DNA of 64,000 nucleotides from Sulfitobacter sp. SK011 (GTDB lineage Bacteria > Pseudomonadota > Alphaproteobacteria > Rhodobacterales > Rhodobacteraceae). The notes under the pieces were generated by a model, which did no database searches, was not told the origin of the DNA, and was given only the letters and a program-made list of their open reading frames with translations. Of this stretch, positions 1 to 8,394 are shown in pieces. The stretch's first letter is position 1. Each line of letters starts with the position of its first letter. The translations under genes were made by a program, and so were the position numbers. Location of the stretch: contig NZ_CP025803.1 in NCBI RefSeq assembly GCF_003352065.1, forward strand, positions 2,707,574-2,771,573, in the 5' to 3' direction.

Positions 1-531
1 CAGAACCGAACCGAGGAAGGTATAAAGAAAGAACTTGAAGCTGGCATAAATGCGGTCCTTGCCGCCCCAGATGCCAATGATCAGGAACATCGGGATCAGA
101 CCTGCTTCAAAGAACAGATAGAAAAGGACCAGATCCAGCGCCATGAACACGCCCAGCATCAGCGTCTCAAGTAGCAAAAACGCAATCATGTATTCTTTGA
201 CGCGGGTCTCCACATTCCAGGATGCGGCAATCACCAGCGGCATCATGAAGGTGGTCAACATCACAAACAGGATCGAAATACCGTCAACGCCCAGACGGTA
301 TTGCATGCCCAGCAGCCATTCGGCCTCGTCCACATGCTGAAAACCCGGATTGCTGGCGTCAAAATCAAACAGCACAAACAGCGAGATCAGGAAAGTCACA
401 GTCGTGGTGATCATCGCCAGCCATTTGGCATTGCGGCCAGCCGCTGCATCATCACCGCGCAGAAACACGGCCAAAATCAATGCCGCGAAGGCAGGCATGA
501 AGGTGATTATGGAAAGCAGGTGATGGTCCAT
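1..531 (-). CDS. nuoM: NADH-quinone oxidoreductase subunit M (partial, C-terminus beyond window)
   Basis: The N-terminal 177 residues of the NuoM antiporter-like membrane subunit of complex I are present; the gene runs off the left edge. The protein starts [15 protein letters not shown] and continues through hydrophobic helices with the family stretch [16 protein letters not shown], typical of the proton-channel subunits NuoL/M/N. The start is ATG at 531, overlapping the TGA of the preceding 77-aa frame. NuoM works in the inner membrane in proton pumping coupled to quinone reduction by NADH. It is the last nuo gene visible here; nuoN would be expected beyond the edge. Confidence 0.97.
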
Positions 532-764
532 CAGAATGCTCCGTTCCACCAGGCCGCAATCAAGAGGATCGGCAGCATGACAATTAGAACCGCGGCAAAA
601 ATCGCGGCATAAAACAGGGTGGCAACAAAGAGACCTGAGCCTCCCATGACAATGCCGACGCGGGCCAGCGCGCGTGTCGATTTGTTCTCGTCACCGAGAT
701 AAAAAGCGGAAAGGCCCATCACCGCGACACAGCCCCCGATGATGAGGTAGAATTCGGTCGGCAT
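531..764 (-). CDS. 77-aa membrane protein between nuoL and nuoM
   Basis: A 77-residue hydrophobic protein (starts [17 protein letters not shown]) with two probable membrane helices separated by a short charged segment ([12 protein letters not shown]). Its ATG shares one base with the nuoL stop (TGATG), and its own stop overlaps the nuoM start, so translation is coupled on both sides. A longer frame reaching to 950 exists only by reading into nuoL in another frame and is rejected. I do not recognise a domain. The position suggests a membrane-arm accessory or assembly protein of complex I in this bacterial family; that is inference from context only. Confidence 0.8.
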
Positions 765-2878
765 CAGTTGGCCCCCCCGCTCATCGACATCCAGGTCACC
801 AGCACAGCGATGCCGATTACCATGGCAAAGGCATAGGTAAAGATATAGCCGGACTGCGCCTTGCCCGCGAGGCGGGTAAAGAACGGGATGATCCCCATCG
901 CCACACCATTGAGCGTGCCGTCGATCACATTGCCGTCCCCGCGTTTCCACAAGAAACGCCCAATTGCTTTAGCCGGGCCGACAAAGATCACATCGTAGAG
1001 CTCATCAAAGTACCATTTGTTTTTCAGGAACTGATACAAGGGCTGCTGGTTTGCCGCCAGGCGCGCCGGCAGACTTGGGTTCCAGATATAGAACCACATC
1101 GCCATTACGAATCCGCCCAGCATCGCAATAAAGGGGCTGACCTTGACCCAGGCCGGTGCCGCATGGGCATCGTCCAGTACATGATTGTCTGGCCCAAAAT
1201 AAATCGCCCCTTCACCCGGCGCGCCGCCAAAGGATGCGTGGTGTTCGCCGCCTCCGGCTGCATCATCACCATGGCCCTCGGTCGCTGCAGCGTCATCATG
1301 GCCTTTCTCGGCACCCTCAGCATGGGCCGTGCCGTCCGCTGCCATCTCAGCCAGTGGGATGTCATAGAATTCCGCGATGTCCTCGGCATGGCCAAAGAAG
1401 CTGTTGTACCAGATCATGCCCGCAAAGATCGCGCCAAGGCTCAACACGCCCAGCGGCACCAGCATGGTCATCGGGCTTTCATGGGCGTGTTCATGGGTGT
1501 GCTTGTCGCCGCGTGGCGTGCCGTAGAACGTCATGAACATCAAGCGCCAGCTATAGAACGAGGTCATTGCCGCCGCCACAACCAGCAACCAGAAACCATA
1601 CATCGACCCGCCTGCCCATGCGGATTCAATAATCGCATCCTTGGACAGGAAGCCGGCAAACCCAAAGTGCGTCAGCGGGATGCCGACACCGGTGATCGCC
1701 AGCGTGCCAATCATCATCGCCGCAAAGGTGTAGGGGATCTTCTTGCGCAGACCACCATAGTTGGTCATGTCCTGCTCATGGTGCATGGCGTGAATGACCG
1801 AACCTGCCCCAAGAAACAGCATCGCTTTAAAGAACGCATGCGTAAAGAGGTGGAACATCGCGGCCGAATACATGCCAACACCTGCGGCCACGAACATATA
1901 GCCCAGCTGCGAACAGGTGGAATACGCAATGACGCGCTTGATATCGGTCTGCACCAGACCCACGGTGGCGGCAAAAAATGCCGTCGACGCCCCGATGACC
2001 GTGACAAATATCATCGCCTCAGGTGCAAATTCCATCAGCGGTGACATGCGGCAGACAAGGAAAACCCCCGCTGTCACCATGGTCGCCGCGTGGATCAGGG
2101 CGGACACAGGGGTCGGACCTTCCATCGCATCGGGCAACCATGTGTGCAGAAACAACTGGGCCGATTTACCCATTGCACCAACAAACAACAAAAAGGCGAT
2201 CAGGTTCGCAGCGTTCCATTCGGACCACAGGAACCCAACGGTTTGTTCGGCCAGCTCAGGTGCTGCGGCAAACACATCGTCGAATTTGATGCTGTCGGTC
2301 AGATAGAAAAGACCAAAGATACCCAGCGCAAAGCCGAAATCACCGACCCGGTTCACCACGAACGCTTTGATCGCTGCGGCATTGGCCGATGGTTTTTTGT
2401 AATAGAACCCGATCAGCAGATACGACGCCACGCCGACCCCTTCCCAGCCAAAGAACATCTGCACAAGGTTGTCGGATGTGACCAGCATCAACATCGCAAA
2501 GGTAAAGAACGAGAGGTACGCAAAGAAGCGCGGTTTGTAGGATTCATCTTCGTTGAAATTCACGTCATGCGACATGTAGCCAAACGAGTAAAGATGCACG
2601 AGGCTCGACACCGTTGTCACCACAATCAGCATGATCGCGGTCAACCGGTCCATGCGAATGGCCCAATCAGTGGAAAGCGTGCCGCTTTCGATAAAGCGCA
2701 ATATCTGGATATGCTCGGTGGGACCGTCGAAGGTCAGGAACACCACCCAGCTGAGCAGGGCCGCAAGGAACAGCAAGCCGGTCGAGACCCACATCGCAGC
2801 GGTCTCTCCGATGATCTTCCAGCCAAAGCCGCAAATCAATGCACCGACAAGCGGGGCAAATAGGATTGTGGTTTCCAT
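764..2878 (-). CDS. nuoL: NADH-quinone oxidoreductase subunit L
   Basis: A 704-aa polytopic protein, the distal proton-pumping subunit of complex I. It contains the conserved antiporter core (about residues 60-420, with [52 protein letters not shown] in two parts, and [11 protein letters not shown]) and a C-terminal extension with the long lateral helix. Between roughly residues 500 and 570 lies a hydrophilic, His/Glu/Asp/Gly-rich insert ([20 protein letters not shown] and following), longer than in E. coli NuoL; whether it binds metal is unknown. Five bases separate it from nuoK upstream. Confidence 0.97.
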
Positions 2879-2883
2879 AGCCC

Positions 2884-3189
2884 TCAGCCCTTCATCACGT
2901 TGACGTCTTCGACAGCAATGGTGCCGCGATTACGGAAGAAACAAACCAGAATAGCCAGACCAATCGCGGCCTCGGCGGCGGCAACGGTCAGCACGAAAAG
3001 GGTAAAGACCTGGCCCACCAGATCGCCAAGGAAACTGGAAAACGCCACAAGGTTGATGTTTACCGCAAGCAGCATCAACTCAATGCTCATCAGCAGAATG
3101 ATCACGTTCTTGCGGTTCAGGAAGAGCCCGAAGATGCCAATGACAAACAGCGTCGCCGCCACTGTCAGATAGTGTTCAAGTCCGATCAT
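2884..3189 (-). CDS. nuoK: NADH-quinone oxidoreductase subunit K
   Basis: A 101-aa membrane subunit, the family's usual length, with three transmembrane helices. Conserved glutamates of the proton path are visible: the one in [20 protein letters not shown] (helix 2) and the one in the helix containing [12 protein letters not shown]. The start [21 protein letters not shown] is standard. A GAGGGA ribosome site lies just upstream of the ATG at 3189. The 254-bp gap to nuoJ upstream is the widest inside this half of the operon and holds a 24-codon ORF. Confidence 0.97.
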
Positions 3190-3291
3190 ATCGTCCCTCG
3201 GTTTGTTCCCCGTTTACCCGGGTCTTTCATACATCGCCCGTTTTCAGGCTTCTTAGTCTTGTTCCACCCCGACTTCCACCGGGATATGGAT

Positions 3292-3366
3292 TTAGCCGAT
3301 CAAGTTGTAGCCGCCGAACAGAATGATCAGCACGACAACCAGCACCACAATTGTATTCCTCGACAT
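3292..3366 (-). CDS. 24-aa single-helix membrane micropeptide between nuoJ and nuoK
   Basis: A 24-codon reading frame in the nuoJ-nuoK gap. It begins MSRNTIVV, has an almost pure Val/Leu/Ile core of about a dozen residues, and ends GGYNLIG followed by TAA. This is the composition of one transmembrane helix with a positively charged N-terminus. An AAGGGA ribosome-binding site lies about 8 bases before the ATG, spaced as for the neighbouring nuo genes. It is 77 bases downstream of nuoJ and 102 bases upstream of nuoK. It could be a supernumerary single-helix peptide of complex I, or a short coupling leader. Homologues were not searched. Confidence 0.6.
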   Translation of the reverse strand: MSRNTIVVLVVVLIILFGGYNLIG

Positions 3367-3443
3367 CGTTTGCGTCCCTTGTCTCGTCCGGTTGCGTTCT
3401 TCTGCACAGAAACGCTCTGGACTATCTCAAAAATGCCGGTGCG

Positions 3444-4046
3444 CTACAGCCCCTGCCCCGGTTTTACGTCTTTCAGTTCCATTGCCGTGGCCGGGTCGCG
3501 CATCATCTGGGCAACCACATCCTGGCGTTTGACATCCACACGGTGGCGCAACGTCAAGACAATCGCACCGATCATCGCCACCAGCAGGATCAGACCCGCC
3601 AGTTGGAAAAGCAGGAAGTATTGGTCATACAGGATCAGACCCAACGCCTTGGTGTTGAACGTATTTGGATCAATCGCTTGCGCGCGCAGCCCTTCGGCGG
3701 CCGCGTTGGTTTCCCATGCGCCAAAGGCCATGACAAACTGCATCAGGATCACCAGACCAATCAGCAAGGCCAGCGGCATATAGCGCGCCATTTCGGCCTT
3801 CAGTTCGGCGAAATCAACGTCCAGCATCATGACGACAAACAGGAACAGCACCGCAACCGCGCCGACATAGACGATGATCAGCAACATCGCGACAAATTCC
3901 GCGCCCAACAGCACGAACAGCCCTGCCGCACTGAGAAACGACAGGATCAGCCACAGCACCGAATGCACGGGATTACGGCTGATCACGGTAAACAGGCCGC
4001 CAGCGATCACGCTGATCGCAAACAGATAGAATGAAAAGACCGTCAT
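3444..4046 (-). CDS. nuoJ: NADH-quinone oxidoreductase subunit J
   Basis: A 200-aa membrane subunit with five predicted helices. The family stretch [20 protein letters not shown] followed by [29 protein letters not shown] is clear; it includes the pi-bulge helix region that links the quinone module to the proton channels. The C-terminal end after [12 protein letters not shown] is hydrophilic. The ATG at 4046 overlaps the stop of the preceding carboxymuconolactone-decarboxylase-like gene by four bases (ATGA). Confidence 0.97.
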
Positions 4047-4459
4047 GCCCCGTCTTCCTTTTTAGTATCCGCCTTTTCATCCAACACCGTCTGCGCCAGT
4101 TCCAGCGCGCGGGTCATGGCGGGGATGCCGGCAAAAACCGACATCTGTCCAATTGTCTCAATGATGTGCTGCTTGGTGGCCCCTGCCTCCAGCGCGTGAC
4201 GGACGGTCTGGCGCATCGCCACATCGTTTTGTGCACCCTGCATGGTCAGCCCGGCCAGCGTCAGCAACAACCGCGTGCGCGCGTCAAGCCCATCAGGGTT
4301 CAGCGTGTTGCCAAAGAAGGTTTCCATCAATTCCTTGGGCATCGTGCCCATCATCGCCTCAAAACCTTTCGGCGAAAACGCATCCATCGCCGGAAACGAC
4401 TTTGCCATTTCCTGCGCCTGTTTCATCATCGCTTCAAAGGGGTTTGTGGGATCTGTCAT
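4043..4459 (-). CDS. carboxymuconolactone decarboxylase (CMD) family protein inside the nuo operon
   Basis: A 138-aa, all-helical protein with one CMD/AhpD-like domain over residues 45-120 ([49 protein letters not shown]). No CxxC redox pair as in AhpD is seen, so peroxidase reductase activity is unlikely from sequence. The N-terminus ([20 protein letters not shown]) is Met-rich and resembles a phasin-like helix. It overlaps both neighbours by four bases (nuoI before, nuoJ after), so it is translated with complex I. Its role is unknown; CMD proteins often act on small carbonyl or quinoid substrates, but that does not establish a function here. Confidence 0.85.
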
Positions 4460-5998: not shown

Positions 5999-6382
5999 TC
6001 ACACCGCCGGAATGCCCTTTTCCGCACAATTCTGTGCGGTTACTTCGGCATCAATTGTCTTCAAGCCCCGTGGCAGGCTTGGCGAGATTGTGTAAACAGC
6101 ATCTGCCCGCCATATGCCAGCCTCTTGGGTCACATTTGTCCGCAGATGACGTGCAAAACCATAGCCACGGATCAGCGTATATTGTGCCGCTGCACATTCC
6201 GCATAGTCCGATACGTCACGCGTTGACAGCGCTTTGGTCATCGCCACGTTGAACTGCACCAGATCGCCGTCAAGCAAGGTGGTCTCTACCCCTTTGTATT
6301 CAGGGATAAAATCCTCTGCCGTTGGCACCTGAGGTTCGCAGGCGGCTAACAGGACAGGGACGAGGGCCAACATGGCCTTCAC
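5999..6382 (-). CDS. small lipoprotein between nuoG and nuoH
   Basis: A 127-aa protein with a short type II signal: [15 protein letters not shown], with the lipobox LLAAC at about residue 15. The chosen start is GTG at 6382 because it overlaps the nuoG stop as GTGA, the coupling style of this operon, and puts a lysine before the hydrophobic core; ATG at 6373 is the alternative. Longer frames up to 6538 only read into nuoG. The mature part holds two more cysteines ([14 protein letters not shown]). I recognise no domain. It is probably a periplasmic, membrane-anchored protein made together with complex I. Confidence 0.8.
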
Positions 6383-8394
6383 TCCGCCGCCATTGGGTTG
6401 GCACGGCGCGCGGCCGCATTTGACGACAATTCCGCCATCAATTCGCTTGCGCGTGCAATCGGGTTCGAGAGGTAAAAATCCGAGAGCGCCGGCGCAAAGC
6501 TGGCTTTGCCCAGTTTGCCCTTGGGCAACGCGGACCATTCGTTTTCCGGCACCTGATCAACATCAGCCAGATGCGGCACATCCTTTACCAGCAACTTGCG
6601 CAATGCCGCAATGGAATCAAACGGCAATGTCGCGCCCATCTCTGCGCTCAATGCCCGCAGGATCGCCCAGTTTTCCTTGGCTTGGCCCGGCGCGAACCCT
6701 GCGCGCGATGCCAGTTGTGGCCGCCCTTCGGTGTTCACAAACAAACCCGGTTCCTCGGTATAGGCGGCACCCGGCAGGATGATATCCGCGCGGTGCGCAC
6801 CGCGATCCCCATGCGAGCCTTGATAGATCACAAACGGGCCCGCAGCGATGTCGACCTCATCCGCGCCAAGGTTATAGACCACATCGGCACCCGACACATC
6901 GTCCATGCCGCCCGGTGCAACCGCACCGATGTCCATCGCACCCACCCGGCCCGCCGCCGTGTGCAGCACCATCAACTTGCTGTCAGTCTTTTCGGCCAGT
7001 TCCATCGCGGCGGCCAGCACAGCGGCACCATCCGCCTCGCGCAGCGCGCCCTGGCCGACGATCACAAGGGACGGCACGTCAAGAACCTGTTTGAATTTGG
7101 TGCCCAGCACCTTGTCCAGCGCCGCGCGGTCAGTGCCCATATGCGCGTATTCGTAGGTCAGATCGACGGCTTCACCGATCAATCCGATATTGGCCCCCCG
7201 CGCCCAAGCCTTGCGGATACGTGCGTTAAGCACTGGTGCTTCAATCGCCGGGTTTGTCCCGATCAACTGGATCATCTGGGCGCTGTCAATGTCTTCAATG
7301 GTTGCGGTCCCAACATAGCCTGAACGGTTCCCCGCTGGCAGTTTGGCCCCATCGGTGCGGCACTCGACAACACCACCCTGCCCCTCGATCATCGTTTTAA
7401 GCGCATAGGCCGCTTCAACCGACACCAGATCACCGACCAAGCCAGCGACCTTCTTATCTTTCATCGCAGCAGCAGCAGCGGCCAGCGCCTCTGGCCATTC
7501 CGCCGGGCGCAGTTTGCCATTCTCGCGCAAATAGGGCGTGTCCAACCGCTGGCGGCGCAACCCGTCCCAGACAAAACGCGTCTTGTCGGAAATCCATTCC
7601 TCGTTCACGCCATCATGGTTGCGCGGCAAGATCCGCATCACTTCGCGGCCTTTGGTATCGACACGGATATTGGACCCCAGCGCATCCATCACGTCGATGC
7701 TTTCGGTCTTGCTCAACTCCCAAGGCCGCGCGGTAAACGCATAAGGCTTGCTGACCAGCGCGCCAACCGGACACAGATCAATGATGTTGCCCTGCAGATT
7801 GCTGTCGAGCGTTTGCCCCAGATACGCTGTGATCTCAGCATCCTCACCCCGGCCTGTCTGGCCCATCTGATGAATGCCCGCGACCTCGGTGGTGAAACGT
7901 ACGCAACGGGTGCAGGAAATGCAGCGTGTCATGTGGGTTTCGACCAGCGGCCCCAGATCCAGATCGGTGCTGGCACGTTTGGGTTCGCGGAACCGGCTGA
8001 AATCAACGCCGTAGGCCATCGCCTGATCCTGCAAATCACATTCGCCCCCCTGATCGCAGATCGGGCAATCCAGCGGGTGATTGATCAGCAGAAACTCCAT
8101 CACGCCCTCGCGGGCTTTTTTTACCATCGGTGAATTGGTCTTTACCACGGGCGGCTGCCCTTCGGGTCCGGGACGCAAATCCTTGACCTGCATCGCGCAG
8201 GATGCCGCAGGCTTGGGTGGACCACCAACAACTTCCACAAGACACATCCGGCAATTGCCCGCAATCGTCAGGCGTTCGTGATAGCAAAAACGTGGGATTT
8301 CCACGCCCGCCAATTCACAGGCCTGAATGAGTGTCATCGCACCCTCGGCTTCGATTTCCTTGCCGTCGATGATGATCTTGCGGATATCGCTCAT
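6379..8394 (-). CDS. nuoG: NADH-quinone oxidoreductase subunit G
   Basis: A 671-aa peripheral-arm subunit. In order: N-terminal [2Fe-2S] ferredoxin domain (Cys37, 48, 51, 66, in [20 protein letters not shown]), the His/Cys cluster motif (His106, Cys110, 113, 119, in [19 protein letters not shown]), a [4Fe-4S] motif (Cys158, 161, 164 in CISCTRC and Cys208), and a degenerate molybdopterin-oxidoreductase domain. The extra N7 cluster motif found in E. coli is not apparent. The C-terminus overlaps the next lipoprotein gene by four bases. Confidence 0.98.

Follow-up and report, generated by a model that had tools for sequence, protein, structure and literature searches.

The complex I operon of Sulfitobacter sp. 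SK011 leaves a gap of 254 nt between nuoJ and nuoK. Does this gap encode a membrane microprotein and, if so, would that microprotein belong to complex I? 'URFs' exist in the nuo operons of Paracoccus and Rhodobacter, and we found no account of a nuoJ-nuoK peptide among the open-licence papers listed by our searches. We examined the window, i.e., the whole 64,000-nt stretch of DNA that was analysed, together with the corresponding loci of related genomes.

A free-standing reading frame between nuoJ and nuoK

A prediction made from the letters of the window alone had placed an ORF of 24 codons and a TAA stop at this junction, preceded by an AAGGGA ribosome-binding site. The coordinates of the ORF (3292-3366) proved exact, and we assign it to the minus strand, on which the prediction had been silent. 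We also confirmed the AAGGGA site at 3380-3375, 8 nt ahead of the ATG, and the position of the ORF in the nuoJ/nuoK gap, as both neighbors were identified by Pfam on the same strand (Table 1). The plus strand at 3292-3366 reads LADQVVAAEQ..., and a search of the SK011 genome with the peptide gene gave one match. Among 47 homologues, 45 start with ATG and 2 with GTG, and an SD-like 4-mer lies at -14 to -4 in 42, versus 10% of gap positions.

Table 1. Features at and around the nuoJ-nuoK junction; positions are those of the window, and loci of other genomes are given by their handles
Feature	Position or loci	Strand	Remarks
Micropeptide gene	3292..3366	minus	24 sense codons + TAA; ATG at 3366, TAA ends at 3292; product MSRNTIVVLVVVLIILFGGYNLIG
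AAGGGA ribosome-binding site	3375..3380	minus	8 nt 5' of the micropeptide ATG
nuoJ, upstream neighbor	3444..4046	minus	Pfam Oxidored_q3 PF00499, E 6e-41
nuoK, downstream neighbor	2884..3189	minus	Pfam Oxidored_q2 PF00420, E 2e-30
Spacer, peptide stop to nuoK ATG	3190..3291	minus	small G+C-rich inverted repeats by eye at ~3283-3268, 3249-3236, and 3222-3208
Hydrophobic ORF	~531..761	minus	~77 aa; between nuoL and nuoM
Frame without Pfam/NCBIfam match	5999..6538	minus	179 codons; between nuoG and nuoH
CMD-domain frame	4043..4459	minus	between nuoI and nuoJ; overlaps the nuoJ start
Type B loci	L017, L020, L026, L034, L132, L246, L269, L277, L278, L294, L333		nuoJ-nuoK gap
Type D loci	L211, L220, L223, L234, L242, L245, L246, L290, L314		nuoJ-nuoK gap

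The peptide is strongly hydrophobic and predicted to span the membrane once

The single membrane helix of the original prediction was borne out by hydropathy: the peptide has one strongly hydrophobic stretch, predicted to be long enough to cross the bilayer (best 15-residue Kyte-Doolittle mean 3.15; 19-residue mean 2.68). No other of the 473 window ORFs of 20-40 aa reaches a 15-residue mean of 3.0, and the peptide ORF also has an SD-like 4-mer. The basic start that had been described holds in a modest form, as the single Arg at position 3. Peptides of the same genus follow the pattern MSR[NT]TIVVLxVVLIxxxGGY; in 29 peptides picked by eye, M1, S2, L13, G18, and G19 are invariant, and R3, T5, V11, and Y20 are nearly so. 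Conservation along the peptide lacks helical periodicity (p 0.45) and thus gives no sign of a single packing face.

Searches of Pfam and NCBIfam with the peptide and its relatives returned weak matches only, below every cut-off given. Among the matches listed, the best to Ecr scored 18.3 bits (cut-off 33) and the best to YoaJ 15.1 bits (cut-off 54); the best match of YoaJ among the 29 relatives had an E of 6e-4. No PDB chain matches the peptide profile at E<=10, a run that bears on homology to the cyanobacterial subunits NdhP and NdhQ with the little power that 24 hydrophobic residues afford. For the NuoK of the window, the best PDB match differs from the query, so the PDB search turned up no structure of this enzyme.

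The reading frame evolves as a protein-coding sequence

The original prediction had named a broken frame, or change without codon bias, in close relatives as its refutation; the outcome of this check favored a gene. In a wider set of 47 loci (46 placed; 42 distinct nucleotide sequences), the synonymous share of single-base codon differences was 0.81 for the 42 distinct sequences versus 0.27 ± 0.06 in 60 column shuffles. The other frames gave 0.17 and 0.04 (forward) and 0.17, 0.59, and 0.03 (reverse); the raised value of 0.59 belongs to the reverse offset-1 frame, which is interrupted by stops in 36 of the 42 rows, against ~0.80 in the gene frame. Entropies at the three codon positions were 0.68, 0.25, and 1.42 over the same 42 sequences. 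By NG86, dN was below dS in 519 of the 524 pairs with dS 0.05-1.5, counts that are not independent of one another, with a median dN/dS of 0.20. The nuoK dN/dS in 512 of those pairs was 0.04, hence the peptide is under weaker constraint than nuoK.

To enter the wider set, a locus had to match a pattern with a hydrophobic run, GG or GW, and Ser as the second residue; the invariance of S2 and GG within that set is a product of the pattern. As these loci had been chosen by their ORF, we reran the coding test within three clades, taken from the nuoJ+nuoK tree, that have an alignable gap and are known peptide carriers (9, 10, and 4 loci; the second taken without L040, which has no peptide, and L160). 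Variable sites fell at 40 of 69 third, 17 of 69 first, and 5 of 69 second codon positions (Fisher p 2e-9), and the sole indel within the peptide codons of the three clades was one whole codon. Overall, the frame varied about as much as the downstream spacer (13/72, 30/66, and 19/69 sites versus 18/103, 38/80, and 13/75, respectively). The coding case therefore rests on codon periodicity and not on slower change, and the spacer downstream of the peptide may itself be constrained. The ORF is very probably a genuine protein-coding gene under purifying selection. The evidence for this comes from the sequence, namely coding constraint, an SD of its own, and, as described below, linkage to nuoK, which together argue for a gene.

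The gene is linked to nuoK but patchily distributed

We looked for NuoK in 98 relatives and found it in 90. From 58 genomes of the same genus, 53 nuoJ-nuoK regions were read; two genomes had no NuoK match, and three were left out whose match was split or lay close to or at the end of a contig. The peptide lies in the gap of 39 of the 53 loci, own locus included, and is missing from 14. It is thus not present wherever the enzyme of the lineage is present; an accessory part may still be optional. A profile search of the 14 genomes without a junction copy gave no convincing copy elsewhere: five weak matches (best E 0.13) sat within frames of 205-323 codons, and we rejected relocation of the gene on these matches. 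One locus without the gene, L007, has an apparent remnant (...NTIVVALSILFGGYNLI) from which the MSR start is missing.

A quick tree of nuoJ+nuoK requires 11 changes of the trait inside the genus, and at least 5 are forced by its starred branches when all 61 rows are counted; the tree leaves 22 of its 58 inner branches open and could be misled by recombination across nuoJ-nuoK. We read the pattern as repeated loss of the peptide gene within the genus, with the proviso that the tree cannot separate gain from loss. In six peptide-less loci from scattered species (L002, L011, L014, L016, L053, and L086), a gap of 73-75 nt is made up of two palindromes such as CCGTTTTCTTCGAAGAAAACGG, and the nuoK leader of the same loci differs. 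The combination suggests that the whole gap was replaced there by recombination. A scan of the window that allowed up to 3 mismatches found no copy of this palindrome.

Across 295 genomes of the family (294 genera), the profile found nine matches at E<=1e-3, and all nine adjoin nuoK; a contig end truncates the peptide of G308, one of the nine. The other 286 genomes gave nothing at this threshold, at which a 24-residue profile can miss divergent copies. Of these, 87 gave matches only at E 0.0018 to 1; two family matches at E ~0.002 (G233 and G158) were not at nuoK and were rejected. A single-sequence search found the peptide in only 5 of the 295 genomes and was too insensitive. Of 80 named loci with NuoK, 2 of which yielded no nuoJ, two show the peptide, one from Palleronia pontilimi and the other from a Roseobacter MAG. 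No peptide was seen in 32 loci of other families in the class, which have nuoJ and nuoK -8 to 27 nt apart, nor in the 12 fetched loci nearest to Paracoccus denitrificans NuoK (88%-91%). A search of 240 class genomes gave, besides the own genome, four matches (E 1.6e-5 to 0.036) that lie in open frames of 319-1656 codons, with neither nuoJ nor nuoK in the fetched locus, and we discarded them as a sign of spread beyond the family. The idea of a conserved, codon-constrained peptide gene beside nuoK is supported, for a gene that 14 of 53 same-genus loci do without and that was detected in few genera.

Different micro-ORFs gather at the nuoJ-nuoK junction

In addition to the peptide, hereafter type A, we found micro-ORFs of other kinds between nuoJ and nuoK, which makes this junction a micro-ORF hotspot within one bacterial family. 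Over 35 loci, 8 of which were chosen as peptide carriers, the nuoK-nuoL gap measures 4-7 nt and the nuoJ-nuoK gap 2-673 nt (median 147). In the family survey, we read 134 loci (128 from the NuoK survey and 6 chosen carriers) and placed nuoJ in 125; the nuoJ-nuoK gap is at most 120 nt in 69 of these and longer than 320 nt in 27.

Small hydrophobic ORFs of several other types occupy the junction in other genera. Sequence patterns served to select types B, C, and D, of which C was spotted by eye and has two pattern matches. Type B is a hydrophobic ORF of ~26 aa that reads ...VLVANGYFGG or ...VLAAFGYFNRR, and type D is an ORF of ~60 aa (...SPAGLAAYAAFWAFKL...) that combines a single hydrophobic segment with a basic tail. 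Like type A, types B, C, and D are small, lie between nuoJ and nuoK, and have a hydrophobic segment, whereas their sequences differ from it. Moreover, type A is free-standing and has an SD ahead of it in 42 of 47 homologues, whereas the starts of B and D often overlap the nuoJ stop codon (8 of 11 and 5 of 9 loci, respectively). Four loci of the same genus (L017, L020, L026, and L034) carry both A and B. The synonymous share was 0.73 for B (11 loci) and 0.60 for D (9 loci), versus 0.28 and 0.29, respectively, in 100 shuffles each. None of the scanned examples of these other ORFs reaches a Pfam cut-off, and the one scanned D gave no match to Pfam at E<=1. Other family members seem to rely on different small membrane proteins encoded there.

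Larger frames were also noted in the gap of five loci (L018, L132, L138, L155, and L156), where ~165-240 aa proteins look secreted. Those of L132, L138, and L155 have a THxSHGGExxHxDLGEGRVMW-like stretch in common.

A possible accessory or assembly role in complex I

Single-pass peptides encoded beside the large subunits that they serve are familiar from CydX, KdpF, and CcoQ-type small subunits. We liken our peptide to them by description, as an operon-encoded single-pass peptide; they belong to other complexes. Nearer to complex I, the cyanobacterial NDH-1 contains NdhP and NdhQ, single-transmembrane peptides of <5 kDa, and NdhP is described as required for the stable assembly of NDH-1L (PMC4131877). 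The peptide would resemble them as a tiny, predicted single helix linked to a bacterial complex I or a relative of it. NdhP and NdhQ, however, are proven subunits of a photosynthetic enzyme, whereas the peptide is shorter and is tied to complex I by operon position alone. In addition, ndhP lies outside a nuo-type operon. The original prediction had reasoned that bacterial complex I has few known single-helix accessory subunits and that a conserved peptide here would be new; no database match of the peptide reaches a given cut-off, but NdhP and NdhQ already set a precedent in NDH-1 (PMC4131877).

Within the Alphaproteobacteria, the 2.3 Å structure of Paracoccus complex I has 14 core subunits plus NDUFS4, NDUFS6, NDUFA12, and PIMT, with amphipathic helices of NDUFA12 at the heel and PIMT on the hydrophilic domain (PMC11522691). 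These supernumerary subunits are likewise accessory parts of an alphaproteobacterial complex I; in the portion of that report drawn on here, none is described as a single short membrane helix (PMC11522691). A 2021 Paracoccus paper states that Nqo7 and Nqo11 were missed by mass spectrometry, likely for being small and hydrophobic (PMC8115037), and a 24-residue helix could therefore be missed too.

We favor, with a probability of about 0.5, the reading that the peptide is the product of a genuine single-pass microprotein gene and would serve complex I as an accessory subunit, or as an aid to its assembly, without being essential. Its association with the enzyme is plausible from its place in the operon, and by analogy the best reading is a role comparable to that of NdhP, i.e., a dispensable single-helix accessory or assembly peptide. 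The nuo mRNA would yield a single-pass membrane microprotein of 23-25 residues, translated from its own ribosome-binding site. Arg3 would hold the N terminus in the cytoplasm, the V/I/L-rich segment would form one membrane-spanning helix, and the GGY tail would point toward the periplasm. Less surely, the helix might insert beside NuoJ/NuoK during their synthesis and might help assemble or stabilize the membrane arm, a role of the kind established for NdhP in cyanobacterial NDH-1. A peptide in complex I would be a very small subunit, and near species with and without it would show the effect of one added helix on assembly, stability, or coupling. Even without such a role, the junction holds a coding gene so small that annotation tends to pass over its like, at a micro-ORF-rich site in a much-studied operon.

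Alternative roles and the evidence that bears on them

The alternative that survives best is a membrane microprotein that acts outside complex I, for example in membrane stress or with another transporter or oxidase, and that is housed in a gap that tolerates insertions and gives steady expression. The varied cargo of the junction fits such a gap (small hydrophobic ORFs of several types, and frames of ~165 aa or more that look secreted), and the peptide is dispensable and patchy even within the genus (14 of 53 loci without it; 11 changes). However, an outside role sits poorly with a gene that has no match at E<=1e-3 away from nuoK in 295 family genomes and no convincing copy elsewhere in the 14 same-genus genomes without a junction copy; moreover, the gathering of diverse small hydrophobic proteins at a single junction hints at a local role that they share. 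We consider a role outside complex I possible, if doubtful.

The variety at the junction also invites an extension of the complex I reading, in which the junction is a site of exchange, among lineages, of unrelated single-helix microproteins (A, B, C, D, and others), each of which would be an accessory helix of complex I specific to its lineage. We put this forward tentatively and think it rather unlikely in so general a form. If true, it would be a bacterial counterpart of the gain of small membrane subunits by the mitochondrial enzyme, with additions, replacements, and losses that can be traced.

Alternatively, the peptide could be a leader or spacer peptide without a later role, whose translation or membrane insertion tunes the translation, processing, or stability of nuoK mRNA. 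The spacer lends this some weight, as it measures 66-107 nt in 38 of 39 same-genus homologues, has small inverted repeats, and is about as conserved as the frame; yet in five loci from other genera it is down to 10-39 nt. Its folding is only mildly stable (52 same-genus spacers folded singly: mean z -1.4, 25 of 52 below -1.5), and an alignment fold of 38 spacers has few pairs. The nuoK SD is mostly paired in the lowest-energy fold of the spacer in 7 of 37 peptide-bearing loci but not in the other 30. No Rfam family reaches its gathering score in 2800-4100. Taken with the codon-biased constraint that runs all along the peptide, these results make a leader peptide improbable. As a separate observation, small G+C-rich hairpins occur in the spacer, and similar motifs are found in some peptide-less loci (L006, L018, and L040).

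Type I toxins of the Ibs/TisB kind are similar to the peptide in size and composition, and the weak sub-cut-off matches are to small membrane proteins, Ecr and YoaJ. A toxin of this type paired with an antisense RNA is nevertheless very improbable for a single-copy gene that runs in the sense direction of a housekeeping operon, with no PADLOC model matching the peptide at E<=1 and no sigma-70-like site on either strand of 2850-3600 (a consensus scan only, and as such a weak test). Finally, a chance ORF without function, which a length of 24 codons amid 473 window ORFs of 20-40 aa and a spacer-like nucleotide variability might suggest, was rejected as having a negligible probability in the face of codon-biased conservation over many species (0.81 versus 0.27; 40, 17, and 5 of 69), the SD in 42 of 47 homologues, the whole-codon indel, and its standing as the only one of those 473 ORFs to reach a hydropathy of 3.0.

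Other reading frames among the nuo genes

Other frames were noted elsewhere among the nuo genes of the window (Table 1). The hydrophobic ORF between nuoL and nuoM has no Pfam/NCBIfam match and one PDB match (E 0.62). The frame between nuoG and nuoH overlaps the end of nuoG, so its true start is uncertain. The frame between nuoI and nuoJ encodes a Carboxymuconolactone decarboxylase-domain protein (Pfam CMD, E 3e-14).
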